A stretch of 64,000 nucleotides of DNA from Bryoerythrophyllum caledonicum (Eukaryota > Streptophyta > Bryopsida > Pottiales > Pottiaceae), in contig OZ020514.1 of assembly GCA_963971425.1 (NCBI GenBank), positions 10,297,218 through 10,361,217 on the forward strand, given 5' to 3'. This document shows positions 6,416-41,350 of the stretch, piece by piece (the first letter of the stretch is position 1; each line of letters opens with the position of its first letter). Under the pieces are notes generated by a model. It was not told the DNA's origin. It did no database searches and saw nothing but the letters and a program-made list of their open reading frames with translations. The position numbers were made by a program, and so were the translations under genes.

Positions 6416-7130
6416 GGCACAAATACTGGAAAGATATTGGGGAAGTGGACAATGGACTTTTTTAATGATGGTCGATTAAGGGTCAGAGAAGAGGCCCCAA
6501 CTAGTTCTTAATTAATTGGTCGTAGATGAAATTTTGTGTACATAGCAGCACATGGTTGGTGGAGAGGAGGTTAACATGCGGTAACCAGCTCCCTATATCG
6601 CATAATTTCAAACGTTTTCCGCATTTCACGGGTCCATCTTTAGGTGTAGATTAGCAAAATCCGACGGCCCCCCAGGACCGGCCATGTAAGGTAATCAAGC
6701 TCTTTAAGCTGGTTACCTAACACATAATCAACCTTGTTGTGCATATCCTTTGCTAATCTTTGTCATGTGGACAATAGTACACTAAGAAGAACAAACAAAC
6801 ATTTTATTTTTGTCGACCTCCATTTAGGGGTCGGAGTTCTTACTGTTGTTGTACATATTCATCTCTAAAGTTACAATCTTTGCACGTTGATGTTATGAGC
6901 TCCGGCCACAACGATGAGGTAGTGTTCTTAGAACATCACTTTCTCTAAATGATGTGTACATTTTTTTTGGTCGTGAAGAGATGGCCCAATTTTGTGTATC
7001 AATAGTAACAAAGAAACTGCCTAATAATCACTAGGGAGTTGTATTGTGAATTTTAGTTTGGGCAGTTTTATCAAATACTCAACGAAGAAGTATAATCAAT
7101 GTAAGTATGGATTTCTTGCATTCATTATCA
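6416..7130. other. Unassigned AT-rich intergenic DNA
   Basis: No gene seen. A loose inverted pair (GGTAACCAGCTC near 6580 and AGCTGGTTACC near 6707) is the only structure I noticed. Confidence 0.4.
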
Positions 7131-7231: not shown

Positions 7232-8779
7232 AAAGTAAGAGTTTGTCAAAATATTATCATAAACAGGGAGTGTAGTCAAAGAAAAACCTATGACATTTTC
7301 ATGAAATTTACAAGAAAACTTCACTAATTTGATTGGGATTTTTCTCTAAAATAAATAACAATTTGAGTTTTTCTATTGGTTGAAATTGGATCAAAGTTGT
7401 ATAATTGGGAAAACTTAAGCACTAGTTTGTTTATAACTTCTGGAACCAAAGTTAATGTTGAAAGAGTTAAAATTGAGTAGACAATAATTCAATCATTTTT
7501 AGCTAATGCTTTTTATTTGTGTATTTATGAGTAGATTTAGTATTCTTGCATATTTGATAAAATTTAACTGACTTATGGTGAAGTTGAATTTTTAGTTGCA
7601 ATACACAAGCCCAACATATCATAACATCATTGTTTATCATGTGTGGAAGTGAATTTAAGATTGTTTACGGTATATATTAGTTTGAATTTTCTTTATTGAA
7701 ACATAAATTCAATTTGGTTCTTTATATAAATGCAATTGATGTGAAATGTATACAATAATTGTTGTTATGAAGAATTTCCATAAAAAGCATATTTGTAAGA
7801 AAATATTTTTTCATGAAGAACTCTAAAAATTCAAAATGATCTTACTTATTGTACTAGTATTGAATTTAGAACTTGAAAGTACAATATACTTTAGATGGAT
7901 GTAGCATGAATCATTTTAACTTAGAGATTACATAAATTTAAGATATATTCAATAAACAATAGTCCATCATTTGAACAAACATTCAAAAATCAATGTACTG
8001 CAAAAATTATGTTTAATATAATGTTAAAGGTAATGAAACTTTATAATATCATTTTATCCAATGTGGATGTTCAAGATGTGGATGTGGATGTGGATGTTCA
8101 AGATATGTTAAAAAAACATATATGTAAGCTTTAGTTTCTAATTGGAAAAAGTGACCTTTGTCATAGCTAAGCTCTTAAAGTTTACAACTATATTATAATA
8201 AATAAAATTGAATCATTATTAACAGATTTTTTTTCATTCTCTTTATTGTAAGAAAATGATTTTTGTATGTCATTTTTATGTTATTTAATGACACTCTTTA
8301 GCTATGAACCATAATAATCCTCTAATATCAATCATCACTTATTTCACCAGAACCTCTATAGAAAAAGTTCAATTTTAAAGCTATAACTTCACTTACTATA
8401 ATTTATGTATAAATTAAAATGAAATGTACAATTTAAAATATTTGAATTAAAATTTATATTTATTTTGAAATTCATTGAAACTTTATAAACTTTGTAGAGA
8501 TTTTTTTAAAAAAAAATTTGGCCAAATTCGTAATTTTAATCAATATTCTTTACTACCAAATATTTTATCATTCAGAAAATTTACATAAAGTTTTGGATTA
8601 TTATGCAATATCATCAATGATTTATAAATAGATAACAAAATTTAACTTGTTTCATTATAAATATGCAACATTCAAAGAGAAACAATTCAGTATGTGGTTT
8701 CAAAACCTAAGTCCTTAAACCTCTATATAAGCTTCAAAATATGGACTATCATAAAAAAATTACTTTTATATGAAGTAAA
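7232..8779. other. AT-rich intergenic DNA downstream of the GPAT gene
   Basis: No coding frame seen. A short GTGGATGT/TTCAAGAT tandem run lies at 8061-8105. The part next to 8780 should hold the GPAT 3' UTR and poly(A) site, but I cannot place either. Confidence 0.5.
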
Positions 8780-10698
8780 TTAAGAACCAAATGAATCTGG
8801 AGACCTTAGTGGAATGGAACCATCGCTTCCACAAAGAGTTGTATATTTGTCTTTTCGTGTATAATTAGTACATTCAAATCCTAAGGTTTGTGATAATAGT
8901 TGTTGAATGTAATTAGCAACTTCAAATGAAGATTTTCCACCAGCACATGTAAGCTCAAGTGGTAATTCATCAAGAAATGTCACCTGTAATACAAAAATAG
9001 AGCAAAAAAACACATTAATGATATATTAATTAGAGAATTTTGTGTTTATGATTATGATATGGATTATCTATCAAACAAAAGCACATTAAATATTGAAATT
9101 TTATCCTTCATAGTATTAGTTTATTAGTTTTAATAATCATTGTATCTATTGTTATGTTTTATACTTATAACAATACACTAGTATTTTAATACTTTTAAAT
9201 GAAAAATGAAATGTTTTTCACAAAATTACCTCATAAGTAGGCATTGGATTCATGAAGAAATAAAAAGGATCTAGGCTCTTCCAACCTCGTGCAGTAGTTC
9301 CATGAAACATACTCACTTTTGTGTTCATTGCGACGGGAACTAAATGATTTGAAAGTTCGGCAAAAAGTGCACTAAATCGTAATAAATATGGTTCACGACA
9401 AGTAGTACCTTCTGGACATATTGCCAAATCTCCTTCTTGTAAAAGGGTTTTTATATCTGCGGCATCTTTTTCTCTGTTTCGTTTAAGTGGTACAGTTTTA
9501 ATTGGTGATAATAATTCTGATAAACGACTTATACTATATGTAACCGCCGTTACACGTCTTCTTAGAGCTACACCTACCATAATAGGGTCTAATAATGTTC
9601 GATGAGTGCACACATATAGATAACCCTTTCCATCGCCATGTTCATGTTTTAAAGGAGGATTTCCACGAACAATAACACACACCCCCAAAAACTTGTAGAC
9701 AAATGTCAATACATTTATTGGTAATATAATACCTACAATAATACGAAGAATAGCTAAAATTGCACCTACTGGATACCAAAGTAATGTTTTGAGAGCAATG
9801 CTTGCTGTTGGTCTTTGTACCAAACGACCATCGTGAAAAACAATTGGATTCATTAAACTATCTTTTGAGGCTGCTGGAATTGTATCATTTGGATGAACAA
9901 TAAATGCTTCCTGCACACATATCTCGTTGTTAATATACTACTTAATAAAAAAAAAAATTAAAAAGTTTTATGTGATATTATCATTTTTAATACAAATAAA
10001 AAAGATACAACATGTAGAAATAATAAAGTTATCACTACCTTGCATAAAGACATGAAATGATAATCCGAAGGACGATCTCCTAGTCCAACATCCGGATATT
10101 CCAAAGCATCAAATTCTTGTTTTAATACCACCTCTTTAGCTCTTCCTACCAAAACACCTGGAGCTTCTAGTAAACCTGTAGCAATTCCATTAGATGTAAT
10201 GTGAAGTTCGGTGCCCAATACTTTGTCTACTCCGAGATAGGTTTTTCCAAAGGGCTCAACCATCACTCGTGGAGTTGCCGTTATTATATATCTCTTTCCA
10301 AAAGATGACAATACTTTCCATGTGCTTGAATGCACATCTTCACTATAAAACTTGGGTAAAGTTCCACGTGCAATAGCTTCAATGTCACCAATTTTAAGTC
10401 CCGCAAATGTAATGAAAATCAAAAGCCGAATGCCCATAGATTCTGAGATGCAATGGTAGAAAAACCAACAAAGAGGAGAAAATAATAGCAAAAGAAATGC
10501 CCGGATAACACCACCTCCTTCAAATGCAACCAACATAAAATACGGAAACGAACTTCTTCCACGAAGTAACGTTCCATCAAGATCAGAAACCGCAGTTTCT
10601 TTTAATCTACTTTCATAATTACAATTGTCAATAGAGTCATATTGTTCTACTTTCATCGAGTTTTCTGGTCTTTGAAGTTTTATGCCTACATTTGGCAT
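8780..10698 (-). CDS. GPAT6-like: Glycerol-3-phosphate 2-O-acyltransferase, GPAT4/6/8 type
   Basis: Three exons read 10698-10039, 9910-9230 and 8983-8780. All junctions are GT-AG and in frame, giving 514 residues, the usual length for land-plant sn-2 GPATs. These ER enzymes acylate glycerol-3-phosphate at sn-2 and, in the 4/6/8 clade, remove the phosphate to give 2-monoacylglycerol for cutin. Seen: HAD-like phosphatase motif [13 protein letters not shown] (about 38-50) and GLGDRPSD (205-212), both with intact aspartates, then acyltransferase HRTLLDP (323-329) and [10 protein letters not shown] (385-394). Two hydrophobic stretches lie near 63-82 and 265-285. The intact phosphatase motifs favour the 4/6/8 clade over GPAT1/5/7. 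The start ATG is the first in the exon and is followed by a short variable N-terminus, as in the family. The gene looks intact. Confidence 0.95.
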
Positions 10699-12684
10699 AT
10701 ATAATTGTTATTGATCTGTATCAATATAATTAATGGTTTTATAAATACTTAAGGTAATATGTGAAAATATTTGAAGCACTGAATGTAGCTCAATACCATT
10801 AAAATTATGATGTATTACCTAGTTGGTTGCCAATTTTTTCCATGTTGATAACTTTTGTAAATTCTTCTCATTCTTTTTTTAACCATATGAAATTTTGAGC
10901 CTCGAACAATGTGACATGTTTGTAAATGTTGTGGTAACTCCACATAAGTCTTAAGTTCAAATGTCTCAAACTCACTAACAATTACCTTCCACAACACCTT
11001 TTCCAAATTAGCTCAATTTTAATTATAATATCAGTAGTAAATTATTGATTCTTTAAATCATAAATCCTATTCAATATTATAATAGTTAATCTCTAATCTC
11101 ATAAACTCAAACCTTTAAACTCCAGTTAAAAGGTATAAATGGAGCACCTGCAAGGTGCAGATGTCATACAAAAGAGAAGCTTTATCATTTTGCTTCTCTT
11201 TTATCCACTTATGATATCAATACAAGGGTGTAACTAAAATAATTTCTTTAACACCATCAGTGTATGCAGGCAAGTAAATATGATACTTTACTAAAACACA
11301 CCAAATTTGCCTTTGAAACATGCAACATAATGAAAATTAGGTCAACATAAATTTCTGCATTTGAAGTTCTTTAATTTCTCTCTAAATTAATAATCAGTAA
11401 ATTAACCTGATATTTTATAATTTAGCTATAACATTTAATGGATTATTATCTTGGGAATTTCAATACCATGAAAAACCCTTATCAAGAATTTAGAAGTGTA
11501 ATACGCATATAATATTTAATATTACTTCTCATATTTTCTTTTCAAAATAATATTCATTATGTGCAAATGCATCAAAGTAAAAAAAAAACTACATTAAAGA
11601 ATAGAGAAATGAAAACCTTTGTCTTCAAGTGGAAATGTCTTCGAAAGAGCTCCTACAAAAATTTCTGAAGAAAAGAAAGAAAAGAATTAATTAGTTACAT
11701 TGTATCAAAATTGAAACCCTTTCACACTAATACCGCTTCAAAACTAACACAATACTATGCACCTCTTTATTCACGAAATGCACCTCTTCGCACAGATGGC
11801 AGATATTTCTTTTTATTAAATTTTAGATATATATATATATTTAAATATATACAAAATAAATTTGAACAAATATTATTCTTCAAAGAATGTGATTTTCTGA
11901 TCACTTAACATTAATAAATCAAAGTAATATCAAATCCATGTACTATACAAGAAGAGTATATCTGTTATATACAATGAATACAATGAGTCATAATAAGTCT
12001 ATTTTTTAATTTTAAATTCTAAGAATGTTGAAAAATACTTTCACGAAGTGATAAATTTTGACATCAACATATCAATTCACAAGAATTTTAAAAAGAAAAC
12101 TTGAAAACAAATAACAGATTTCTATAAAAATAAAAAAATTACCTAAGCTAGGTGTATTTTGTACAATACCCTCCCATAAGTTTACTTACTCTCACTCTTC
12201 CAACGTGAATTTAGAAGGCAAATCTTACCGTATTTAGAAGTCTAATTTTATCAAGATTAGAAGTGATTGAATTTAGAAGTCTAAATCCGATAGCTTATAA
12301 TTTTAATAAGATTCAACTTTTAAATACATTAAGATGCGATTTCTAAATTCACGCTAGAAGAATGAAAGTACTTAAATTTATGGGATGGTAGTGTACAACA
12401 TTATTATTTAAAAAAAATCTCTCTGTATAAAAGAAAACGATCTACTCGGTGATTCCAAAACCTAGGCCATCCAAAAGATACATGGATGGTGGCAAGGCAA
12501 CCTTTGTGGTTGATTCCAAGTTTTGATCACAGAAGGTGGATGGAGGAGCTTGGACTGATGAGACAAGCTCCAAACCTGAAGAAGCTGAAGGTTGTACATA
12601 AGAAGGCAAAAAAGCAAAAGATTGAGTTGCGTGAGGCGCGGCGACCGTCGTGCGTGGCGGCAAAGCCAATTGTGGTGTAAGGTA
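10699..12684. other. GPAT upstream region and AT-rich spacer
   Basis: The GPAT promoter should lie just right of 10698. A perfect 11-bp inverted repeat, AAAAGAGAAGC and GCTTCTCTTTT, sits at about 11171-11203, next to a GCACCTGCAAGGTGC palindrome. No coding frame beyond chance length is seen. The 12442-12669 minus frame is not recognised. Confidence 0.4.
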
Positions 12685-13033
12685 AGTTATACCCCCATGA
12701 CCGCCACCTTCCTATCACTGTCACTCTATATTTGGTCCCAATTCCACCCCATGTTTAGCCCATTTTCACCGATTCACTCTTTGACAACTTACTATTGGTC
12801 AAGACCCATAACTTTTGGTCGGGGCTAATGGGGGGTACCTAGGGGCAAAAATAGACTAAACATGGCTGAATACTTTGAAAATTCATAACTAATTCACACC
12901 TCATTGGAAAAATATGAAATCACTTGGATTGAGATTGTAATTCTATTGACTATCACTGGAAAAATAAATGTATCATTATTTTGGTTCTCTTTATATGCCA
13001 TTTCTTAAACTGTCGGTCATGGGGGGTATACTT
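12685..13033. mobile_element. 349-bp TA-flanked MITE
   Basis: The ends are imperfect inverted repeats: AGTTATACCCCCATGACCG on the left, and AAGTATACCCCCCATGACCG when the right end is read in reverse. TA lies on both sides (12683-12684 and 13034-13035). There is no coding capacity. The TA duplication suggests a non-autonomous Tc1/mariner-superfamily element. Confidence 0.7.
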
Positions 13034-13690
13034 TACTAGGAGCAATTGTAGTGGGTGAAGGGAACATGAGAGGGGAAAGAGAAGCGGAGATTGCCGCTCC
13101 GGTACCTTTCAAAGACTACACAGGAGCTTGCGATTGAGGCCGTAGAGGAGTTTGTTAAAGAATATTGAGAATCCGGTGTTTGTATGCCAATGTTGTATTT
13201 GTAAACTTCCAACATGTATTGGTTGGGAGTTCTAGAGTTCTAGAGGAGCATATGCCAATTGTGGACGAGAAGTTTATGTTGGTAGTGAGACATGGTACTA
13301 GGACATGGACCCAATTATTTTGGGGATCTCAAGACCTTGTTGTATAGGTACCCACAAGGCCCTTGGGGAGGATGACATGTTGGTTGTCCCTAAGGCACTT
13401 AGTGTGAAAAAGTGTTCACCTCAAAAAGAAGGAAGCGGTTCCAATACACTAACCTATGTTCCGTGGCCTTACGCTCAGCGAAGAGAATGCAAGTCTGGAA
13501 GTAGCTACAGTGTCCAAAGCCATGGAGACATTGGATGGTACACACTTGGGAGCATGATAAGATTAATGTGAATCAGTTTTGTATAGATGATATCGTTGGT
13601 GTCCATTTTGTAATAGACAACCTCGTAATGTAAGACATTTTCAAGAAATAGTGAAGATTAGTGGCGGTTGATACATGACATTCCAAGGTC
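13034..13690. other. Unassigned spacer
   Basis: Chance-length frames only (for example 13305-13571 plus). I recognise no domain or repeat boundary here. Confidence 0.4.
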
Positions 13691-14406
13691 TTAACCCCTA
13701 AAGGACTAAACGTCCCCCGGGGTCAAATTGGATTTTGGGCATGTACTTACAATTCGAAAAAAATCCTTTTTAATTGAAAATTTTATTCAAGATAGCCTCT
13801 GATAAGAGCTTCGTGGAGATATTTTTATTTTATTTTTTTGGATTTGTGGTTTGAAAGTTAGTACCACTTAAAGCCAAAAATGGGGACTCCGGGCACCTCC
13901 AAAATTTTTGACAAAAGTTTCTATTGACATTGAGATTTTTCACACATATAAAGAATATTTCCTTCTTTGGAAATTTTCAAAAAAATTCTTGTCTTTAGTG
14001 TAAAAAGGTATTTTATTCCAAGTCAAACAATTTCACACATTGTCTGGCAACGGGGGAAAAAAATTCATCTTTTCTACATAAAACCTAGAGATCTTCATAT
14101 TTTTCACTTTTTATTTTTTCAACAACAATATGTGGTGAAAACCTTCTTATTGACCGTTTGGATTATCATTCAAGTACATACGTAGTTCACAAAAAAATAA
14201 AACGTGAAATGGCAATTTTTGAACCTTCACTCCTTGCACACTTGTTTTGAATATGCTACACCCCTTTTTTACCTCTAAAAATTGGTGTGTTGGGAAATAA
14301 CATCGTGCTTAAGACAATGGTAAAAGGTTTAGACCTTGTACAATGCAAAAATTTGATACAAAGTGAAGTCAAAGTCTGTTGATCTACTCATCGCAGGGAA
14401 GAAAAT
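13691..14406 (+). mobile_element. TTAA element, truncated at its right end by the LINE
   Basis: It starts TTAA then CCCCTAAAGGAC at 13695 and follows the internal order of the complete element at 22391-23334 (GGGGACTCCGGGCACCTCC, AAGTCAAACAATTTCACACA, TCCTTGCACACTTGTTTTGA, GTTGATCTACTC). Similarity ends after GGGAAGAAAATGAA near 14406, where LINE 3'-end sequence begins. It is diverged from the two complete copies. Confidence 0.75.
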
Positions 14407-17400
14407 GAATTTTAGTAGGTTTAGTAGTATGGAACTACTCCCCCCTTTCGAAGGTAGACACTATGTAACCAAGAACAAGTAACCAGGGACCAAAGACCAA
14501 CTAGAGCCAAAGGGCTCAATTCCAAGAAGTGATCTGTAAAGATTTAATGTGTGTTTTTGAGAGGTTTTAAGGGGTATCATGTAATTCTGGTAGTGGTTGG
14601 TTATTTTCTAGTTTGCGTTTGTGTAGAAGTATGGACATTGCATGTTGGATAGCGATGGTGTTGATTTTTGTGAATGTCTTTTTAATTGGATCAATGAGGA
14701 TATTGAACGTTTTTTTGAGACTTTTCATAGAGGGGATAAAGATAGTAGCTCTAGCTCTAGCGGCAATGACAATAAGGGGGCCAACTTTCCATCCAAGAAT
14801 TGCAATGTCATTAATAAGTGGCTCGTATTTATTAATTTTATTTTCGATTTCTTAAGAAGAGAATCTGTCATTACAATATTTAAATTCAATAAATTAGATA
14901 GTAAGGTTTGTATTTATGTAGTCTAGTGGGGGGTCTTTGGGTTCCACATGTGCATGGAAGTAGCCATGGTGGGATGGTGTTTTCTTGTGGGTTGTTGTTA
15001 AAGGTTCCGGCGTTCATAAGTGTATAGCACCTTGATTTGTTTGAGGATACAATTTGTTTTCGGGTTTTCCATACCCGCTTTGTTGTGCCTTTTGACAATT
15101 TGGGAATGCATGTGGTGATTTTGACATTTGAGGAGTATGTGTAGCCATGTGTCCGAGTCCGAGGAGGTGCATATTAGACATGTTATGGATGGGAGTTGTT
15201 CTATTCCAAAGAAGAGTTGTTTGCGGACATTTTCCATATTTCCCATATTTCCCACAAAAGAAAATCCGTGAGTCTGCTTTTTAAGTATACTTTTGCTTCA
15301 TTTTCTAGTAGAAAAATGTTCGAGTGATTGGTGATCTAATGCAATTGGCTTTGTTAATTCTAGGAATGTTTTTAGCACCACCGTATTTGGCAAGGATAGA
15401 GTGGGTGAGTCCTTTGTATATCATAACAAGTCTACCTTTGTCTTTGAGTACATTTTGAAGTTGTTCTCCTATACGTCGGAGGTAAGCATTTTTAAAGGAA
15501 AAAGCTTCTAATCCAAATCAGTTTATGGGGAGTTGAGTTATGACATTTGACATACATTTAGGGAAACCACAAATGGAATTTTGTATGGCTATACTTTTGT
15601 ATGGCTATACTTTTGTATGGCTATACTTTTTTTGTCTAGTTTTTTGATAGTAGGCATAGAGTATGGGACTGCATAGAAATTGAATGCTACTCTGGATCTA
15701 AGTATTGTGTCTACCATTTTTATTTTTTGTTTCATAGTGGCCGGGCATGATACAAGTTCTTTGCATTGTTTAGTAAGTTTTGTGGTAGCGATGTGAATCT
15801 CTATCTTCCATTTTAGTGAGGAAGCAAGATTTGGGCCTAGATATATGTATGGTTCATTTTGATGTAGTATGGGGATGGATTGGTTACGGTATTTTATGTT
15901 GGCGGCTTGCATAAGTGCTTTGAATGTGGTGGGGTTCAGTATGAATTTTGATTGGACATCCCATGGCCGCACATTTTTGGGTGCCAACATCCATTCTAGG
16001 CCAATTGCAAAATTTGTCAACTTTATTGAGTTGAATTTGTAGTGATTTGAGTTTACCGGCTACAACAGGAAGGTCATTGACATGTGGAGCCAAGTTTATG
16101 GTGACTTGTGATGTTATAACCGTTATAATCAAAGGTATAACCGTTATTTCCCCTTTGCATCCATCTTAGTAGTAGCCAAAGGTATAACTGTTATATCCCC
16201 TTTGCATCCATCTTAGTAGTAGCTAAGAAAATAATAAATAGATATGGAGTCAAGGTATCACCCTGTATAGTTCCTCGTTATATGGAGATGGGATGGGTTG
16301 TTTTGAAATATCCTCCAACGTATGACGTGGACGAGTCAGAGTAGATGTTTCCAACTGGTGCAATTGCATCGGTGGGATGTCTGAGGTCCAACATAATTGC
16401 TAATAGTCTTGCATGGTCAATAGAACTAAATGCATTTTTGAAATCTGTATATAAAATATATTTGTCTTGATTTGTAAATCGTGCGTCTTTGAGTGCGGCT
16501 ATTATGGTCTGGAGTTGTCTAGCGGTACTTCTTTCCGCACAAAAGCCTTCTTGGCAACCGTGTAAGATTTGGTATTCTCTATATGATGATAATATGGATG
16601 TGAATGTGCTTGTGAAGAGTCTATAGATAGTATTGGCTAAGGCAATTGGTCTATGGTTGGGAAGCATTGAGGGATCATCTTTTATATATAGTGATATTGT
16701 AGAACTACTTTTTCATGAGGCGGGGGTATGTTTTTGTTTGTAGCAGTAAGAGAAGAATAGGGAGAGAAGTTCGTGGAATCTTGGAGGCATTAGTTTTCAT
16801 AGAGTTTGGAATCTCTGGGGCTTTGTTGTTTCCTAGATTTTTGAGGCATGTATTGTATGTGGCTCGCTTAACCTCTAAAGGTCCAAGGCATTTTCACACT
16901 AAAAACACTTCAAAACTGCTCATTTTAGTGCAATGAGTAATGAGGTAATTAGAACCATTTATTAATACATCTAACCATAGGATCTAAATTAAGACTTATT
17001 TGTTAACATCCTCACAAAATTTTATAAACTTTATCCGCACGGATTGAAAGATTATAGTGTTTGAAGTTGAGAAATCCGTTCTTTTTCTTCCCTGCGTTGA
17101 ATGGATCAACAGACTTTGACTACACTTGGTGTCAAAATTTTGCACTACACAAGGTCTGAAAGAATTACCATCATGTGAATCATGATGTTATTTCCTTGAA
17201 CACCAAGTTTTAGAGGTAGAGAAGGGGTGTAGCGCATTCAAAACAAATGTGCAAGGAGTAGAGGTTCAAAAATTGCCAATTCACGTTATATTTTTTTGTG
17301 AACTAAATATGTTTTAGAATGATAATCTAAATGGTTAGTGGAAGGTTTACACCACATCTTGTAGTGGAAAAAATAAAATGTAAGAAATATGAAGATCTCT

Positions 17401-18850
17401 AAGTTTTATAGGAAAAAAGAAGTTTTTTTGGTACCTTGTCGGACAAAGTGTGACAAAGTGCAAAAATGTTTGACTTAGATTATCATGTTGTTTTCCACTT
17501 AAGACAAGAGATTTTTTTGGACAATATGAAAGGAAATAGTATTATTTTCTAGTTTTGGAAATCTCACATGCAATAGATTGTCCTAGCAAAAGTCTATGGA
17601 GTTGCCCGACATGCCCGCTCTCCCCATTTGAAATTCAAAACCCTATAACTTTTTCATAAAATGTCGGATTTAGGAAAAAATTGGACTCACGCAAAGCTTT
17701 TAGCAATGTCCATCTACAGTAGAAATTTCAAAAAGGAATGTTATAAATTGACACCATAGGAACCTACCGAAACCTTCAAGAGTCCCCCGAAGGGTCTGTT
17801 GGGTCTTTAGGGGTTAAAGTAAGTGTGTAGCGGGATTTGCGGTCCACCACATTTCTCTATAGTGAAGCCGTTAAGGTTATGCCATGGGTATTGTCTTACT
17901 GCACATGTACATGTAGGTAGATGATCTGGTATATAGTTACATGTAGGTACCGTAGGTCTATTGTTTTTTGTTTGTTGGTTATATATCTCATTTGCAATGT
18001 CCTCTGGGCTAGTTAATATATTGTTATATTGGTTGGTGATACAATCTAGCGGTGGAGAATCACTGTTTTTGAAGACTCTTCTATTAATTTTCTTTGGGCT
18101 AGTTTCATATAATTGTCTGTATTTAGAGATGGCTTTTTTGACATTTTCTCTGGTATACTTGGTAGTTATTTTTTTGGCTTGTTTGTTAGCCTCTTTTGCG
18201 ATTAATGTAATATCATGTAACCATTCATTTGGTGATGTGTCGGGAGGTAATAGGGGTGGGATTTGGGTATGTTGGAGGGTTTGTACTTCTTGGCAATTGG
18301 AGTGAGTAAACCATTGTGGATTATTTTTAACAGTTCGGATTGTTTTTGAATGGTATGGTAGGTGGTTAAATGTTGTTTCCACTTTTTTGAGAGTTTTCGT
18401 GGTAAGTAGCCTCCTTGTTTGGATGCTCTAGTTGTTAGTTGGCATATGGGTGGGGCTTTACATGTTTTCCCTAGGGTGTTGGAGATATTTTTTATAAATG
18501 TGTCTAAGGTGTTACAAGCTTGAAGCCATTGATTTTAAGTGAGTTGGTCATTGTTTTGTAGACCATAAATAAGGGAGTCGATTTGTATAGAATTTTCTTC
18601 AAAAAATATTGTGTTGAAATCTTGTACATTTTTTTTGGAATGAGATTAAGTATTTAAACAATTTTTTTGTTTGGTTTTGTGGGTGTTATACTAATAAGTG
18701 TATTTTGTGGGATACTTAATTGAATTGGTGAGTGGTCTCAGTTTAGAATAATTATTGTTTTTGTGGAATACATGTATTGTGCGTGATTGGAACTTAGTAT
18801 GTAAAAACCTTCTATTAAACTTAATATCTTCATAGCAAGCAAACAAACAA
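14407..18850 (-). mobile_element. LINE copy 1 (minus), interrupted by a TTAA element
   Basis: Read from the right: a trace DHSPI (18737-18723) resembling the last motif of an APE endonuclease, then pre-RT sequence (17807-18382), then RT with DFKNAFSSIDH (motif A, within 16278-16667) and a VNDL motif where most RTs have xDDL. The RT C-terminus (15589-16020) contains QCKELVSCPATMKQKI. A zinc-knuckle/endonuclease segment follows, with CLICTSSDSDTWLHILLKCQ and VKRHNKA (within 14998-15255). Compared with copy 2 at 37-41 kb, the RNase H part is deleted at about 15265. Frameshifts and stops are present, so it is inactive. A 942-bp element with a TTAA duplication splits it at 16868-17817. The 3' tail ends near 14407. 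Confidence 0.85.
16872..17813 (-). mobile_element. Complete TTAA element (942 bp), piggyBac-like MITE
   Basis: It is flanked by TTAA at 16868-16871 and 17814-17817. Ends are CCTCTAAAGGTCC on the left and, read in reverse from the right, CCCCTAAAGACCC. There is no transposase frame. It sits inside LINE copy 1. LINE copy 2 at 38920-38935 has a single TTAA at the same point (ATAAGGTTAAAGTAGGTG), which is the unfilled site. TTAA targets and C-rich termini are hallmarks of piggyBac-type transposition, so the class assignment is by known mechanism, not by a transposase seen here. Confidence 0.88.
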
Positions 18851-18948: not shown

Positions 18949-19401
18949 TCAAGCATTGCCAGGCATCCATCCTTGGTAGAATGTCCACTCCACAGCATCG
19001 CCGGCGTCAGTGTCAATGGTAACAACATTGTAGATGCCATCGCTGTTGACCTTGAATGTGCAGGGGCCTTGGCGGCAACAAGTGGGCCGCTCACTGTACT
19101 TGCTGCCCTGCCACACCGGAAACTCCTGCCTATACTTCGTCCACAAGAACTCACAGTTGTACACCGTGCGCCCAAACACATTGGGGTTGAACTTCCAGTA
19201 GTAGTTGCTCTTGGGCGCCACCGCCACCTTGCCAAAGTCGTCGTCCTTGGACGAGCAGTGTAGGATGAACGTGTCATTCAAGCCACTGATGATGTTCACG
19301 GACGATCCTGAGGGGTTGCCATTGTTGTCCGTTGCTCCCGCCAAGGTCGCCAGGAGCAGTGCCATTAACAGGAGCAGCATCAGCCTTGAGTTTGGTGACA
19401 T
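18949..19401 (-). CDS. Secreted S1 self-incompatibility-family protein (SPH)
   Basis: Single-exon gene of 150 residues. A hydrophobic signal peptide (about 1-23, LMLLLLMALLLATLAGA) precedes the S1/SPH core: VNIISGLNDTFILHCSSKDD (the classic N-terminal block ending C-x-S-K-D-D-D), YYWKFNPNVFGRTVYNCEFLW, and a C-terminal beta-rich part with CCRQGPC. Length and the LHCSSKDDD and YNCEF cysteines match plant S-protein homologues, small extracellular proteins of mostly unknown role; one member is the poppy stigma determinant. The extra CC-x3-C cysteines are unusual for the family. The start is the first ATG and gives a clean signal peptide. The role here is unknown. Confidence 0.88.
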   Translation of the reverse strand: MSPNSRLMLLLLMALLLATLAGATDNNGNPSGSSVNIISGLNDTFILHCSSKDDDFGKVAVAPKSNYYWKFNPNVFGRTVYNCEFLWTKYRQEFPVWQGSKYSERPTCCRQGPCTFKVNSDGIYNVVTIDTDAGDAVEWTFYQGWMPGNA

Positions 19402-21015
19402 TCTGAAGACAAACCTGTGCCAAGTGTAAAAGCATTAGTACCCAATGCCATGCAGCAATTACAGCCCTTCACACAATGAGGCAGAGTCATTGATTTGAGA
19501 AGGCCTCCATCAGCTCATGTGATGGCACATCGTTGGAAAATGTCATGTGGTGGAAAGTCTTGCATGCATTAAGCCTACACTGACAATATTTTCCAGAAGA
19601 CAAACCTAGGTACATGGATAAAATAAAGAGAAGAAATAGCTGGACAGATTGGAAATAATACTTCAAGAGGAGCTTTATCTGGTCCAGCCTTCTCTAATTG
19701 ATGAAATGAATTAGCTAAGTTGTAACTACAATAGAAGAAAGAATGAGAATAGGAGAATTGGATGCAAGAGTAGTCTAGTTTGAATTGCGAAATACTCTGC
19801 AGTTTACGTTACGGTACAGCTAAAACTCCAAAGTAGTGAAAGCATAAAAGGAAGAATGAAATAAACAGCTGCTCACCAGATTTTCCTGAAAGAAATTTGT
19901 GATTGCACTCTGAATAAAGATGCTACAGAAGAGTATGGAGTAGCAAGAAATATGGGATGTTGTGGCACATGAGCAGAGTCATGAAATACTACAAGCAGTT
20001 ATAAGGTGGAGGCATGGACCCCAAGAAGGTGGGCAGGTGATGAACCCCTCAACGTGTCCCTTTTGAGCAGCCATGTCCTGGCAACTTCTAGCCAGGTGTC
20101 CCACAATCACAATCACATCCTTGTGATCACTCTTTGTTGGAGTCCAGCAGGTCTGAGTGCGAACAATCTGTTAAAACATTCTACATGTACTTAGGCAAAC
20201 ACATACTCAGCTACGTGAAAAAACTTATCTCTGCGTAAAAACAGTCAAAAAACAGTACCACATGATGCCTCTCATTCTCAGACAGAGCATGCATCTTGGG
20301 AATTGGATATCAGGTTGGCAGTTGATGCCATTTTATAGATTATTCGAAAATAAATCTGACCAGAATGCTAAATAGTGAGCAACTATGCTTCACTGGGAAA
20401 GTTACGCACTACACCCCTAAATCTATTTCCTCGGACAGGTATCTGAGCCTGTAAACACCCATGTCTTTCCACAAACATCTGGAACAAGGGTTCAAGACTT
20501 TGATGGCTATGATGACAAAGTGTAATAGATTCTAAAAAACATAAAGCATAGAGTATGTAACAATATCCAAGTCTGAATCATCACCTGAAGCATTGCGTCA
20601 GCAGCAGCAGCAGCTGAGCTCCATGTCATCTAATCTACATAGCTGTCACCTAATTATATCCATCTTGGAGCTTCTACATGATAGTGCCTATGGGGACACA
20701 AATATCAGTTGCCATAGCTCATTAAGCCTCAAATCATATCTGTAAACTCCTAGAAAGGGGCTAAAATTACTAACCACTAAATTTAAAACTTATCCTACAA
20801 CATGGAGTAGTTTGATCTACTTCTACCCAGCTCCATTTCAATTTTTTAGATCAGGCAGTTAGGTCTTCACAACCAAAATGACATAAGTCCATACGTAACA
20901 GTCAAAGTTCGCATTTCATGACAAAAATTTCAACGACCTTGGTAGCATCACCAAGTTGATGCTCCATGAGACATTAAAAAATAAATAATGAGAATGAGCT
21001 CTAACTCTCGGCTTT
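19402..21015. other. Intergenic DNA between the SPH and GDU-like genes
   Basis: Holds the SPH promoter on its left and the GDU-like 3' UTR on its right. I see no other coding frame, repeat pair or RNA gene. Confidence 0.5.
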
Positions 21016-22390: not shown

Positions 22391-23334
22391 CCCCTAACGT
22401 ACCAAGTGTCAAAAATGGGCTTTTTGAAAGTTCGGTCAAGTTCCTATGGTGTCAATTTCCAACATTCTTCTTTGAAATTTTTACTATAGAAAGACATTAC
22501 CAAGACCTTAGTGGGAAAACAATTTTTTCCTGAATTGGACGTTTGATGAAAAAGTTATAGGGTTTTGAATTTTAAATGGGGAGGGCGGGCACCTCGGGCA
22601 GCTCTAAAAACTTTTGATAGGACGCTCTACTGAAAGTGAGATTTTCAGTACTCGCAAGTAATATTATTTCCCTTCATATTGTCAAAAAAAAGTTCCTGTC
22701 TTTAGTGAAAAATAGCATATCAAACCAAGTCAAACATTTTCACACATTGTCACTCATTGTCGGGCAAGGTACCAAAAAAACTTCTTCTTTTCCACATAAA
22801 ACCTAGGTATCTTTATATTTTTCACTTTTTATTTTTTCCACAACAATATGTAATGTAAACCTTCTTATTAACCATTCAGATTATTAATCGAAAACATATT
22901 AAGTTCAAAAAAATTAAAGTGTGAATTAACAAATTTCGAGCCTCCACTCCTTGCACACTTGTTTTGAATATGCTACACCCTGTCTCTACCTCTAAAATTT
23001 GGTGTGTAAGGAGCTAACATCATGCTTGACAAGATGGTAATAGATTTAGACCTTGTGTAGTGAAATTTTTTGACACCAACTGAAGTCAAAGTCTGTTGAT
23101 CCACTAAACTCAGGGAAGAAAATGAACCATTTGCTTGACTTCAAACACTATAATCTTTCAATCCGTGCGGTCAAAATTTATGAAATTTTGTACATGTATT
23201 ACTTAATAATCCTTTATTGAGATCCTACGGTCAGAACTAAAAATAAAAAAAATTGTTACCTTCTTTATTCATTGCACTAGAATCCATTAATTTTGAAGTG
23301 TTTTTGGTGTAAAACTGTCATGGTACCTTAGGGG
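22391..23334 (+). mobile_element. Complete TTAA element (944 bp), piggyBac-like MITE
   Basis: Flanked by TTAA at 22387-22390 and 23335-23338. The left end CCCCTAACGTACC is inverted at the right end as GGTACCTTAGGGG. Internal sequence is collinear in reverse orientation with 16872-17813, and the length differs by only 2 bp. No transposase frame is present. This copy defines the full-length non-autonomous family. Confidence 0.88.
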
Positions 23335-34702: not shown

Positions 34703-36339
34703 TGTTGTCGGGCATAATGAGCGATAAGGTCGTGGAGGTCCAAAGCATGGCTTCTGTGGCATGGATTACGTTGTGTTTTTTAGTGCTACCAATATGTACA
34801 CGAGGTAGGTTTTGATATGTTAAATATACTTTGAATAGAACGTGGTTCAATATGGAGAGGCTTTGATTTTGATAGGTTTGAGTATAAAGGTGTTTGAGCA
34901 TGGACAAGTTTCATGATGGTTAGATTTGAGAATGGAACGGTTTTAAGATGGACATGTTTGAATATACGCAGGTCTAATTATGGAAAGATTTGAGTACAAG
35001 CATGTTTGACAACCTTGCAAGACATCGAATTTTATGAAAATTTTAGTAGGTGAACCGTGGATGTTGGAATGCACATTTCAAGGCCATCATTTTGTATTCT
35101 TCCCTTTGTCTTTTTTCTCCTTGCTTCTGTATAAGCAAACACACTTTTAACGTTTGTAAGTAGGAGTTTAGTTCCCCTAAAAATTTTGAGCTTAATTTTA
35201 AGAAAAAATGGTCAGTAATGAGATTTATTGGATATGTAGATGGGTTTTTGAGGATGTATATTGGGGCAGGAGGGAGTGGGTGTGGTGGATTTGGGGGGTG
35301 GATTGTCGGGCGTTCTTTATAGGTTGGGTGGTGGTGTATGTGTCTTTGAGTATGTAAGGTAGAGGCACTCAATTCCGATCACTTAAGCCTGTCTGGGACT
35401 CTAATGACATTGTATGTCAATAACATTTATGTAGAAAGATGCGGAATTAGGATTGAAATTCAACAAATATTTTTTTCAAATTTAGCCACAGAGATTTGGA
35501 ATTGATATAGAATTTAGAAGCCCAAAAACCGCTGGAGCCTATAATCAAACTGTAGAGTAGGTCAGATTAAGTGCTCTCCTTTGCCCTGTGCAACAAGTGA
35601 GAGTGAAGGCCACTTCACACCAAACCGAGTCGAGAGTCGGTTTGTCAAAATTTATGCCTGCACTATGGCGAGTGTCTAAACTTTTGGATATGAAAACATT
35701 AAAATATACATATTGAAGCATTTGGGCGGTTGTAGTGTGAAGCCGCAAAGCCCAAGTCCAAAGTCCAAACCCCATATCATTGGCCAAGATTCCACTCACT
35801 TTTTACTACATGAATGGACTAATTTTTTGAATTTTTCCTCTCTCGTTCTTTTACCATGGATTCTAGAAGGAAACGTATTCTTGTTCTACTTTCGGTTTTC
35901 ATGGTAATGAAATATGTTTTAGTAGGCTTTCTGGCATTGCAAAGTTGCAATTTCCCTATGTGTCAATTCCTATGTAACCCATGTGTCAATTCCTTTGCAA
36001 AAAACATGAAAAAGAATAGTACAAATGCTCAGAAATGGCCTTAAAAATCAATTTCAACTCACCTTGGGAAGCTTAAGCAAATACTGTAATTGCATAAAAG
36101 AGGAGAATGAGACATCAAACATCAAGGAGAGAGGTAGGGCTTTGTAGAGAGTGTGTTGGTTGAATCCAGGAGACTAGGGCTCAAATCCCAACGCCGACGG
36201 CCTTCATGCCCTCACCATGGGGGTCATGGGGAATGCCTTTTGGCCTCAAATTGGGCCTCCAATTGACCTCGCACTTATCAAACCTATCTTTGGCAAAATT
36301 CAGGGTTTAGGGTTTGAAAAAATTTCATACGCCAAAAAA
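34703..36339. other. Unassigned AT-rich DNA
   Basis: No recognised gene, repeat boundary or RNA feature. Frames are at chance length. Confidence 0.4.
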
Positions 36340-36498
36340 ATTCAACCACTTTTCAGCCATTTTCACTTACGCCAAAAAAAATTGCCAAAAAAATTCAACT
36401 ACTTTTCAGCCATATTCACTTACGCCAAAAAAAATTGCCAAAAAAATTCAACCACATTTCAGCCATTTTCACTTACGCCAAAAAAAATTGCCAAAAAA
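36340..36498. repeat. 53-bp tandem repeat, three copies
   Basis: The unit (ATTCAACCACTTTTCAGCCA, then TTTTCACTTACGCC, an A-tract, ATTGCC and a second A-tract) repeats three times head to tail with one or two changes per copy. The A-tracts are phased with the unit. Confidence 0.9.
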
Positions 36499-36807
36499 TT
36501 TGGCCTCTTTTATCTAATGGTCTAGATCTTGTCAGATTTTGATTATTTTGTTGAAAAAATCGACGGACTCTTGAAGGAAGTTAAGGTTGACTAAAACCGG
36601 CGACCCAAGTTTTGCTCAAGAGTTTGTCGCCTTGGTGCCAAAACTCTCCAAAAGTACTACCATGAAATCACATTGGAAGACGACGACCTTTGGACTTTGG
36701 CCTTTGGTGTGAAGGCCAAGAGGTTGGACTTTGGCCATTCAAGTAATCTCATTGGTGGAAAGCGACGGGCTCTCGACCTTGGATTTGGTGTGAAGCGGCC
36801 TTGATTA

Positions 36808-37149: not shown

Positions 37150-39034
37150 GGATAGCAAAATAGTTGTTGGACAATATTAAGGGCGCTCTTTACTAATTTG
37201 GATGGTTTAGCTAGAAATGTTTTGAAGTTATTGTGGTTCATGATGTGTGTTTCGTTTGGTAGTGTTATTTGTTTTAAGTTGGTAATATTTACTGAAAAAA
37301 GTTTTTGTAGGAGTTTTTGGGAGAGGTTATGGTTAATTCTTGTGCTGTTTAGGGTTTCTCATAGCCACATTTGTTCCAATGGTGAGGGTTTTATGGAGAA
37401 GTCTTGAGTGTGCTTTTTAGGTAAAGTTTTGTTTCATTTTTTAGTAGAAAGAATGTTCGGGTGATTGGTGATCTAATGCAATCGGCTTTGTTTATTCTAG
37501 GAATATTTTTAGCACCAGTGTATTTGACAAGGATAAAAATGGATGAGTTCTCTATAAATCTTGCCAAGTCTATCTTTGTCATCGAGTGCAATTTGAAGTT
37601 GTTCCCCTACGCTTCAAAGGTAGGCATGTTTAAGGGAAAACGCTTCTAGTCCAAATAAGTTTTGTGGGAGTTGGGTTATGAAGTTTGATGTACATTTGAG
37701 GAGGCCACAAAATGGATTTTTGTATGGCTATCATTTTTTTGTCTAGTTTTTTGATAGCAGGCATGGAATATGGGATTGCGTAGAAGTTGTATGCTACTAC
37801 CGGTCTAAGTACGGTGTCTACCATTTATATTTTTTGTTTTATAGTGGCCGGGCATGTTAGTTGTTCATAGCATTGTTTAGTAAGTTTTGCGGTAGTTCTG
37901 TGAATTTCTATCTTTCACTTTAGGGATGGGACAAGGTTTGTGCCTAGGTATATGTATGGTTCTTTTTTATATAGTTCAAGGATGGATTGGTTACAATATT
38001 TGATGTTGGCGACTTGCATAACTACTTTAAATGCAATGGGATCCGTTTTGGATTTGTTTGGACATGCCGCGGGGGCACATTTTTGTGTGCCTGCATCCAT
38101 TCTAGACCAATGACAAAATCTGTCATTTTTTTAAAGTTGGATTTGTAGTGATTTAAGTTTACCGGCGACAGCGGCAAGGTCGTTGGCATGAGCGGTCGGG
38201 TTTATGGTAACTTGTGATGTTCCAAAGGTGTAGCCGTTATTCCTCGTTTGCATCCATCTTAGTAGTGGTTCTAAAAAAATAATGAATAGATATGGGCTTA
38301 AGGTATCGCCTTGATTGGTTCCGCATTGTATGGGGATTGGACGGATTGTTCCGAAGTATTGTCCAACGTATGAGGTGGATGAGTGAGAGATGATGTTTTT
38401 AACTAGTGCAACTGCGTTGGTGGGATATCCGAGGTTAGACGTTATTGCTTTTAATCGTGCGTGGTCAATAGATCTGAATGCATTTTTGAAATCGATGTAT
38501 GAAATGTGTATGTCTCGGTTTGTAAATCGTGTGTCTTCGAGTGTGGCTATTATGGTCTGGAGTTGTCAAGCAGTACTTCTTTCGGCGCAAAAATTTTCTT
38601 GGCTATTGGGTAGGATTTGATGTTTTTCTCCATATTAAGATAATATGAATGTGAATATGCTTGAAAATAGTTTATAGATAGTGTTGGCTAAGGCAATTGG
38701 TCGTGGTTTGGAAGCATTGAGGAATCTCCTTTTTATAGTAGTATTGTAGAACTAGTTTTTAAAGAAGCGGGGATTTGTTTTTGTTTGTAGCAGTGAGAGA
38801 AAAATAGGGATAGAATATTTGTGGAATCTTGGGGGCATATATTTTAGTATCGAATTTGGAATGCGGTCTGGCCCAGGGGCTTTGTTGTTTCCTAGACTTT
38901 TGTGGCATGCCTCATATGTATAAGGTTAAAGTAGGTGTGTAGTGAGATTTGTGGTTCACCACATTTATCTATAATGAAGCCGTCAAGGTCATGTCATGGA
39001 TATTGTCTTACCGCATATGTACATGAAGGTAGGT
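37150..39034 (-). mobile_element. LINE copy 2, inverted 5' segment (RT)
   Basis: Minus-strand sequence collinear with LINE copy 1 from the pre-RT region to just past the RT thumb. RT motif A reads DFKNAFRSIDHARLKAI (near 38465-38515). The catalytic turn reads HANDLAAVAGK (near 38170-38200), with Asn in place of the usual first Asp. The C-terminal RT part shows KEPYIYLGTNLVPSLK and VAYNFYAIPYSMPAIKKLDKK. Frames are broken. At 39034 the orientation flips to the plus-strand 3' segment of the same element. Confidence 0.85.
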
Positions 39035-41350
39035 GGTGAGGAGGAAACACAACAAGCACTACATTGGGCCTGTCTTGCTGCCAAAAATGACCCACAACAC
39101 ACGTCTACACTCATCATCACACCAGACAAAAATTGGTATCCAAACTTCAATCCACAATCAAGCCCATTTGCAGACTCCCATATCAATGTTTTATTTGAAG
39201 CAGACACAATTACTTACGAAGAACCTACTATCATACATGAGCTAAAAAAGCCAAGAATCGAACCATTTACACTGCAAATAATATGCATTCACCACCAAAA
39301 CCAAACCCTTGGCACCTGAGAGCAGCTTGCCGAACTCACCTCCATAGCAAAAACTCTTAACATAAACCGGCTACCCACAAATATGGCCCCACCAACACCT
39401 ATACCAACAACAGTAAACAAAAACAAAAAATTGTCAAAACTAAATTACAACAACAACACACTAGATTACATCTTATAACCCCCACCCCTCCCGGACTACC
39501 AAACTACCACCTCACCAAAATTTGACCCCGCATATAGCTACTATACCGATGGCTCCTTCAAACCACCAGAACATATTAGTCCGGGTACTTGGCGTAGGGA
39601 AAAGCTGGTTATGGAATATACAACCCTACGAAAGAAATCAAATTAGCCAAAAGACTGCATGGACTACAAAATATCCTTAGAGCGGAACTCATAGCCATCC
39701 ACAAAACACTGGAAATTATCACAACAAAATACAACAATGAGCCAGTGTACATTTTCACAAACTGCATTAATGCACTATATTTATTAAACACCTAAATAAC
39801 ACACTTTACCCTCCATAATAGCCACCCCAACCAAATCTTACTAAAATCTATGGTCCAAATGATACTAAAATGAAGACAAATCACAACCATCCACAAAGTT
39901 CGAGCCCACGCCGACAGTGATGGTAACGAACAAGCGGATAAACTAGCAAAAGAGGGCCGAGAAAAATCACACAAAAATGCCAAAGACCCACACGAACATG
40001 CCCATGCCACCCCTTATTACTTCCAAAAAGAAGACTGGCCCTGCAAAGAAGACACCCCCGATAAAGGCCCGGTTAAATTCTTGAGCAAATACCTCAAAAA
40101 ACAAGACCTATATAATAACCTAGACACAATCTCAGATAACTTCCCTAACATAGAAAAGTGGACTAACAACAACAACATAGACAATGAACTGTCTACAAAT
40201 TTCTGGAAAAACCCCATCATCACCAACTCACAAATAACATACCTTATCAATGTCTACCCTCGAAAGGGGGAAGTAGTTCCATACTACTAACCCATGCCCG
40301 GTGGGCATGGACTTAGTGGTGGAATGAACGGGCACTTCACTCACGCCGGCCCCCTACGGAGACCGGCGTTCTTCTTCTTCTTCTACCTTATCAAATTTCG
40401 TACCGGACAATACATGGGAAACGCCCGGAAATAACTCTTCTTTGGAATAGAAATATTCCCATCCATAACATGCCCTATATGCACGTCCACGGATCCAGAC
40501 ACATGGCTACATGTTTTACTTAAATGTCATAACCACCACATACGCTCCCTAATTGTCAAAAGATATAACAAAGCCGTATGGAAAATCCGTAAATTAATCA
40601 CCTCCCGTAACAAATCGAGATGTTTTATCCTCATGAATGTTGGCACCTTTAATAACAATCCACAAGAAAATACGGTCCCACCATGGCTACTCCCATGTAC
40701 ATGTGAAACTCAACGATGCCACTGCAATGCTCGACTCAAACCGGACATACTCTGGGTTAGAGGCCTACCATTCAATGACCCTCCACCCGACCACATAAAC
40801 CTAGACTACACGATTCAATTCATCGAATTCACATGCTGTAATGACAGATTTTCCGCTGAAACAATCGACAATAAAATAAATAAATACCAACCCCTTATTG
40901 ATGACATCACTGCCCTCGGATGGAAAGTGGACCCCTTTATTGTAATCACAGCCGGCGCTCGTGCCACCACCTTAATCCCGTCTATAGAAATCCTAGAAGA
41001 TACCTTCAAAATTCCTATTGATACGATTACAAACACTTTGAAAAATATTAACATCATTGCCATACAACATGCTATGTCCATCCTCCTACATAAACGTAAA
41101 ATTGAAAACAACCAAGCGCTCCCAGATGCACAAGAACCCTCATAAACATGTAACACACCCCCCTCTCCATCTTTCCCTCCCCTCCTTCTCCCCCCCCCGT
41201 TATTTCCCTCCCCCCCTACTCACTTCTTTGTCACTTTTATGATTGGTTGGTTTGGTGGTTCTGGCTACTTGTTACATAGTGTCTACCCTCGAGAGAGGAA
41301 AGTAGTTCCAGCTTACTAATTCCTTGTCCGGTGGGCATGGTCTTGTTGAA
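39035..41350 (+). mobile_element. LINE copy 2, 3' segment: RNase H and R2-type endonuclease
   Basis: Plus-strand order: an unrecognised segment (ALHWACLAAKNDPQHTSTLI), an RNase H domain (YYTDGSFKPP, LRAELIAIHKT, YIFTNCINALYLL, VRAHADSDGNEQADKLAKEG; third acidic residue replaced by Asn), then a zinc knuckle CPICTSTDPDTWLHVLLKCH followed by RSLIVKRYNKAV (from 40471). Next come LKPDILWVRG and IQFIEFTCCNDRF with KINKYQP (40735-40890). The knuckle plus K-P-D, acidic strand and K-x2-KY layout matches the restriction-like endonuclease of R2-type LINEs. The last frame, 40633-41145, is open for 170 codons. The tail near 41275 carries TGTCTACCCTCGAGAGAGG. A few stops break the RNase H part. Confidence 0.85.
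40251..40383 (+). mobile_element. 133-bp LINE-tail or SINE-like insertion with 11-bp TSD
   Basis: It interrupts LINE copy 2 between the RNase H and endonuclease parts. TACCTTATCAA flanks it at 40240-40250 and 40384-40394. The front matches the LINE 3' end (TGTCTACCCTCGAAAG, GTAGTTCC, GGTGGGCATGG) and the end is (TTC)n. Two perfect hairpins are visible: CCATGCCC/GGGCATGG around a 3-nt loop (40292-40310) and ACGCCGG/CCGGCGT (40343-40369) directly before the TTC run. Confidence 0.88.

Follow-up and report, generated by a model that had tools for sequence, protein, structure and literature searches.

Two dead LINE copies in the moss Bryoerythrophyllum caledonicum and their intact relatives point to a dual-nuclease retrotransposon family of the Dualen/RandI plan

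Whether a land plant hosts LINEs with two different nucleases is the question raised by a 64,000-nt stretch of the Bryoerythrophyllum caledonicum genome (GCA_963971425.1, contig OZ020514.1, 10,297,218-10,361,217, forward strand), here called the window, in which two damaged LINE copies lie. A preliminary description of this DNA had read in them a reverse transcriptase (RT), RNase H, an R2-type endonuclease (RLE) and a trace of an APE nuclease, and had likened this set to the Dualen/RandI plan. The likeness holds in intact relatives from the same genome, which carry all these parts in one frame and in the order that had been guessed. Both window copies are very probably dead copies from an autonomous moss family of non-LTR retrotransposons that was active recently and follows the Dualen/RandI plan. 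Judged from sequence, the domain order of this family is 2A, APE, RT, CAPAM/PCIF1-like domain, RNase H, CCHC knuckle and R2-type nuclease (Table 1). Three features go beyond the preliminary description, namely the PCIF1-like domain, the 2A peptides, which the window copies lack, and a structured 3' end.

When the intact element A was searched against the window by blastn and tblastn, copy 2 appeared as a single rearranged insertion with a truncated 5' end. Its 3' half corresponds to nt 11285-13432 of element A and lies on the plus strand at 39038-41344; at the junction about 1 kb (nt 10304-11284 of element A) has been lost, as has the 5' end. An RT-bearing LINE had been placed at 39035-41350. 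A copy is indeed present there, but its RT part lies outside, inverted at 37155-39024, with an RVT_1 match at 38134-38565 (Pfam, E 2.4e-11). The layout (target, inverted 10303..8431, then 11285 to the 3' end) leads us to infer twin priming, a process established for L1. A target duplication around copy 2 was looked for, and none was made out.

Within the plus-strand half, residues 3032-3221 of element A align with 39035-39604 at 69% identity (tblastn), and Pfam RNase_H matches fragments of the interrupted frame weakly (E 0.011 and 0.00062). The succession of RNase H, CCHC knuckle and KPD-type core reported earlier is borne out, and the peptides quoted for it fall within a 236-aa frame at 40435-41142. 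A later insertion of 133 bp, made of the element's own 3'-UTR tail, is flanked by a 10-bp duplication, ACCTTATCAA, at 40242-40251 and 40385-40394. Copy 2 reads as a dead, non-functional copy, because its RT has HAND in place of YADD, its RNase H has FTNC in place of FTDC (the third catalytic Asp changed to Asn) and its frame is broken. Also in the window, three 65-nt repeats with 53-bp spacing are located at 36331-36501.

Copy 1 lies on the minus strand at 18824-14430, and the PCIF1-like and RNase H part is missing between its RT and RLE segments. It also reads as dead, because of its frame changes and stops. Its DHSPI string, which had been taken for the last APE motif, lies within an 80-residue alignment to the APE end of the intact copies (42/80 identical, E 2e-19). 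Since this region aligns with intact APE domains, what had been called the weak link of the dual-nuclease reading is real. Besides, an unrelated repeat some 950 bp long splits copy 1 at 16866-17812 and recurs at 13979-14409 and 22417-23247, in both orientations. A self-incompatibility S1-family gene, consistent with a land-plant host, borders the broken 5' end of copy 1 on its upstream side, at 18952-19434 (minus strand).

Table 1. Features of intact copy A (protein residues) and of the two window copies (window nucleotides)
Copy	Feature	Position	Strand	Basis or remark
A	2A core	residues 1339-1346		about 220 residues before APE
A	APE	residues 1563-1736; motif strings at 1564, 1594, 1721, 1777, 1805		Pfam (1563-1736)
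A	RT	residues 2182-2443		RVT_1, E 2.6e-26
A	CAPAM/PCIF1-like domain, PCIF1_WW (PF12237)	residues 2929-3063		Pfam, E 8.4e-11, above cut-off
A	RNase H	residues 3198-3340		PF00075, E 5.2e-13
A	C-terminus	CCHC from about 3463, RHNK 3493, KPD 3552, IEFT 3580, KxxKY 3596, GAR 3624		
2	Inverted 5' part, RT and post-RT (element A nt 8431-10303)	37155..39024	-	blastn/tblastn
2	CAPAM/PCIF1-like domain, C-terminal part	39038..39319	+	tblastn
2	RNase H, frame broken	about 39533..39960	+	mapped from A aa 3198-3340; weak Pfam
2	Later 133-bp insertion, own 3'-UTR tail (hairpin and (TTC)n)	40252..40384	+	
2	CCHC zinc knuckle, C-x2-C-x9-H-x4-C	40471..40527	+	alignment A2; same place in R2 proteins
2	Putative RLE core, KPD...E...KxxKY...GAR	about 40738..40962	+	alignment A2, R2 sequences, rank test
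2	3' UTR, ends before terminal hairpin	41146..41344	+	
1	End of APE domain, DHSPI at 18737-18723	18603..18824	-	tblastn, A aa 1777-1851
1	APE-RT linker	17813..18636	-	tblastn, A aa 1840-2114
1	RT and post-RT region	15259..16872	-	tblastn, A aa 2113-2625; RVT_1 E 3.6e-8
1	CCHC knuckle and putative RLE	14570..15237	-	tblastn, A aa 3444-3686
1	3' UTR piece	14430..14501	-	blastn

The family is large. The 236-aa RLE frame of the window has 149 other places in the genome at 83-91% identity (150 scored places, the window's own included, among 8611 loose candidates), and PF12237 is above the cut-off in 150 scored places of 2614 candidates. An identical 3087-aa frame with the same score recurs in 33 of these 150 PF12237 places, which suggests a recent burst of this subfamily. 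For the domain analysis, ten copies (A-I and K) were selected for long open frames, element A being joined from L009 and L010. In all ten, 2371-2373 stop-free residues run from the 2A peptide to the C-terminus, and the second ORF reaches up to 3686 aa. Upstream of it, copies A, B, C and E have a first ORF about 635-767 aa long, open at the end of the analysed stretch in A, B and E. This ORF is interrupted in D and F, and in G, H, I and K the analysed stretch does not extend far enough to show it. No Pfam match above the cut-off was found in the first ORF of B and E, the two scanned, and a pattern search of four first ORFs found no zinc knuckle. Relatives in viral and bacterial collections were searched with poor patterns, and none was found.

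Other sequences of the same assembly were noted as well. The psaB protein of plastid contig C894 scores 1666 bits with the Physcomitrium patens photosystem I chains 7ksq, 6l35 and 8htu and at most 1633 bits with all others among the 60 chains listed, so that the plastid, too, looks like that of a moss and not of a flowering plant. Another APE-bearing family, apparently recent, has a 1541-aa frame at C3:29000892, C6:30343402, C9:4095429 and C15:16244816. The psaA and psaB proteins of the plastid contigs C894 and C821 (L025-L028) differ by 2.4-2.6%. Contamination, a transferred copy or a mixture of two chloroplast types might explain this.

As the window copies are both broken and rearranged, with other insertions among them, one might suspect that separate APE-type and R2-type LINEs lie side by side as a patchwork, or that the assembly is at fault. 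Against this, the ten selected copies sit on several chromosomes and each has one uninterrupted frame across all domains. Moreover, the domains are co-located with fixed order and spacing. Among the matches listed, at least 8 of the 72 PCIF1 places compared are preceded, 3.9-4.5 kb away, by an APE match on the same strand, and none of the 72 shows APE in the wrong order; an RLE match follows the PCIF1 match by 1.6-1.9 kb in 12/12 places picked for this. A patchwork or artefact is thus hardly credible, and a single element with all these domains is the reading retained below.

Profile searches had been proposed for the four enzymatic domains, and matches were obtained for EEP/APE, RT and RNase H but no significant profile score for the RLE. 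The EEP domain (PF03372), on which the dual-nuclease part of the preliminary description hung, is found in the intact relatives: copy I scores 33.3 bits, above the Pfam cut-off, and copy A scores 24.2 bits (E 3.3e-5), just below the cut-off of 24.5. Five APE motif strings, YADD and two RNase H strings are present in 10/10 copies, QGDTLSP and YTDGS in nine, and the H..D string of RNase H in eight.

The best solved matches to the moss RT are R2 proteins (PDB 8gh6, 9dou, 9nl2, 9nl3; E 1.7e-30); in identity it is equally close (24-27%) to R2s and human L1. In a seven-sequence tree without an outgroup and without Dualen, the R2s are set apart from the moss RT and L1 with 96% support, and the moss RT groups inside neither R2 nor L1. 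With the RT profile, three R2 chains score 109, 106 and 106 bits, human L1 74 and R2Bm 53, which argues against a usual plant L1-type element that carries APE and RNase H and ends in a mere zinc-binding tail instead of a nuclease.

This L1-type reading has to be weighed mainly at the C-terminus. Plant L1s have a C-terminal Cys-rich knuckle and the moss RLE gives no significant profile match, and both points count in its favour. However, in the moss element RNase H precedes the knuckle, and RHNK, KPD, E, KxxKY and GAR follow in R2 order. The succession CCHC, RHN, KPD, D/E, KxxKY, GAR is common to the moss C-terminus and the R2 chains of the PDB, and RHNK, KPD, IEFT, KxxKY and GAR are found in 10/10 copies. 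In alignment A2, nine residues stand before the His of the knuckle in 7/8 rows (two rows being the same window sequence), and because of this real spacing a CCHC pattern with eight residues matched 0/10 copies; in L003 an Arg replaces the His.

Searched with an R2 profile, four moss RLE sequences rank 1, 3, 4 and 5 of 693 (controls included), at non-significant E-values of 0.042-3.5. An ordered signature true for three R2 sequences, composed after both the moss and the R2 sides were known, matches A and H and no other of the 693. Against the L1-type reading, this post hoc pattern appears in 0/5,000 shuffles of residues 1301-3686 of A and in 0/100,000 shuffles of the region; it is also absent from the window copies (copy 2 reads RYN where RHN is expected). 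The comparison of the moss RLE with R2 by hhalign gave probabilities of 1.9 (local) and 4.2 (global), with some shuffles higher; a PDB profile search with the moss RLE region returned no R2 match, and the AlphaFold model of the RLE is poor (pLDDT 35.5). By ordered signature and rank, we regard the C-terminus with high confidence as an R2-type restriction-like endonuclease.

Selection was estimated between copies A and H, which belong to divergent subfamilies and whose dS of 0.84-1.14 is near saturation. The dN/dS is 0.095 for APE, 0.065 for RT, 0.083 for the PCIF1-like domain, 0.061 for RNase H and 0.045 for knuckle plus RLE. These low values (0.05-0.10) indicate that selection maintains the two nucleases and the PCIF1-like domain. 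The value of knuckle plus RLE is the lowest of nine segments, which again speaks against a mere zinc-binding tail, and an L1-type LINE is on the whole quite improbable. In closer copy pairs dN/dS is higher and noisier, as expected for new copies. Separately, dS for copies A and F (L009/L010 and L019/L020) is about 0.4-1.1 upstream of and within the RT but drops to about 0-0.1 downstream; the subfamilies look mosaic, perhaps through template switching.

Between RT and RNase H, the intact copies contain a domain of the family PF12237, which according to an excerpt of a 2020 paper (PMC7641849) is a CAPAM-like methyltransferase and not a WW domain. Solved PCIF1 proteins have NPPF within FGSRG...GSFEANPPF. 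The moss domain shows FGSLG...G-x-A-H-P-H in 6/6 rows of alignment A1 and in three further pieces; AHPH occurs in 9/10 copies and (D/N/S)PP(Y/F/W) in 0/10. With HPH in place of NPPF, methylation by the usual mechanism is doubtful. The domain is kept in a relative (L062) with 56% identity over 1098 residues. Solved PCIF1 sequences have no significant match to the moss domain, and the broader Pfam family alone matches; the AlphaFold model is poor (pLDDT 38.9). We consider RNA binding, perhaps at the capped 5' end, a more likely function of this domain than methylation. In the literature searched, no LINE with a CAPAM-like domain was described, which does not prove absence: the two papers that use the Pfam name concern other subjects, and among the best 15 of 484 and best 12 of 1,208 papers of two wider searches none names PCIF1 or CAPAM.

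The second addition is the 2A (StopGo) peptide, the core of which is defined as (D/G/C/N)(V/I)ExNPGP (excerpt of PMC12846837). This strict motif is present in 10/10 copies and 0 times on their reverse strands, and four copies (A, E, F and K) have additional strict or degenerate 2A motifs upstream, that of F in another frame. A search of the 64-kb window itself found none. In copy A, a 123-bp tandem array stands in frame before the 2A (L009 4388-4828), and 2A modules are repeated there too. Constructs with 2A function in plant cells (excerpt of PMC4981915). According to a survey of 2026, there is no evidence that plant viruses use 2A naturally (excerpt of PMC12846837), and a natural 2A in a plant element would contrast with this. 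On the boldest reading, a land-plant lineage of dual-nuclease LINEs may have retained, under strong selection, a domain with a cap-methyltransferase fold between RT and RNase H that reads and does not write the capped 5' end of its RNA, linking 5'-end recognition to the two nucleases, and may also use natural StopGo; we hold this tentative proposal to be rather unlikely as a whole.

The third addition concerns the 3' end. TTCTTC follows the hairpin in 30/30 loci, which were taken as the best matches to the tail, and in copy G a T run replaces (TTC)n. For the terminal 125 nt of copy C, the folding energy is -57.4 kcal/mol versus -36.0 in shuffles (z -6.0, 0/200 shuffles). Nine copies have 41 predicted pairs in common, four of them with two-sided changes and some broken, and covariation contributes little (-0.88 of -45.46 kcal/mol). 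A folded 3' UTR with a repeat end fits stringent 3'-end recognition as in LINE/SINE pairs, among which algal RandI and its SINE partners are described (excerpt of PMC3747384). The 5' end is visible in 3/30 tail loci, with target duplications of 13 bp in L039 and 10-11 bp in L058 and no clear one in L057. These short duplications and the twin-priming-like inversion point to target-primed reverse transcription.

Two further ideas about the 3' end were tried and rejected, namely site-specific insertion, since the flanks differ between loci, and a SINE partner, since the 133-bp insert of copy 2 is tail only. The tail-only fragments begin at several different points, so extreme 5' truncation suffices for them. 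In the window, three LINE-tail fragments of different extents are located at 7090, 35143 and 49541.

A round of insertion could then run as follows. Ribosome skipping at the 2A would release the enzyme polyprotein, and its RT would recognise the folded 3' UTR. One nuclease would nick the first strand and prime cDNA synthesis at the (UUC)n end, cleavage of the second strand may fall to the other, and RNase H would take away the RNA template. In the case of copy 2, the product would have been inserted 5'-truncated and inverted, by twin priming.

Compared with known systems, the moss family is distinct from both R2 and L1. R2 has a single RLE and inserts site-specifically in 28S rDNA, and we know of no APE, RNase H or 2A in it; in the moss family an APE is present, copies lie on many contigs with different flanks, and the RLE differs from that of R2 by a long stretch inserted between RHNK and KPD. 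Plant L1 has APE before the RT, and to our knowledge L1 elements have APE only, without RLE, whereas RLE motifs are found in 10/10 moss copies. RNase H has been reported in plant L1 (excerpt of PMC4640811), and flowering-plant L1 families mostly have poly(A) ends (excerpt of PMC3747384).

The closest plan is that of Dualen/RandI from Chlamydomonas and relatives, with APE N-terminal to RT and an RLE in one element, RNase H, and a 3' tail of short repeats other than poly(A), all of which the moss family has as well. Dualen carries a protease domain, and Pfam found none in copy A. Excerpts of the literature describe two nucleases (PMC4640811, PMC3636483) and RNase H (PMC4640811) in Dualen/RandI, and tails of (ATT)n or (CTATTT)n in algal RandI (PMC3747384), compared with (TTC)n in moss. 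The 2A and the CAPAM-like domain of the moss family are unmentioned in these Dualen/RandI excerpts. The moss family may still be a known Dualen/RandI element, the algal members of which also have PCIF1-like domain and 2A, overlooked so far. In support of this, the algal elements share the two nucleases, RNase H, SINE partners and non-A tails according to the same excerpts, and we consider it a serious possibility, although not the favoured one. RandI is listed solely under green algae in a 2013 table (excerpt of PMC3747384), and a 2021 paper reports Dualen in Chlamydomonas relatives. We found no literature report of Dualen/RandI in bryophytes, most subscription journals and Repbase being outside the search, and the words RandI and Dualen are absent from two moss genome papers, and RandI from a third.

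The position of Dualen has been taken as showing that APE-type LINEs arose by replacing an R2-type nuclease (excerpt of PMC4640811). With many intact, recently copied dual-nuclease elements in a moss, and purifying selection on both nucleases, the role of each nuclease becomes testable in a plant. The remaining domains also have counterparts elsewhere. The moss element shares the exact StopGo core with non-LTR elements of trypanosomes and sea urchin, but here it stands in a dual-nuclease land-plant element, upstream of the nuclease-RT protein. Likewise, the Pfam match and the FGSLG core are alike in CAPAM/PCIF1, whereas the moss domain has HPH for NPPF and is fused within a LINE polyprotein.
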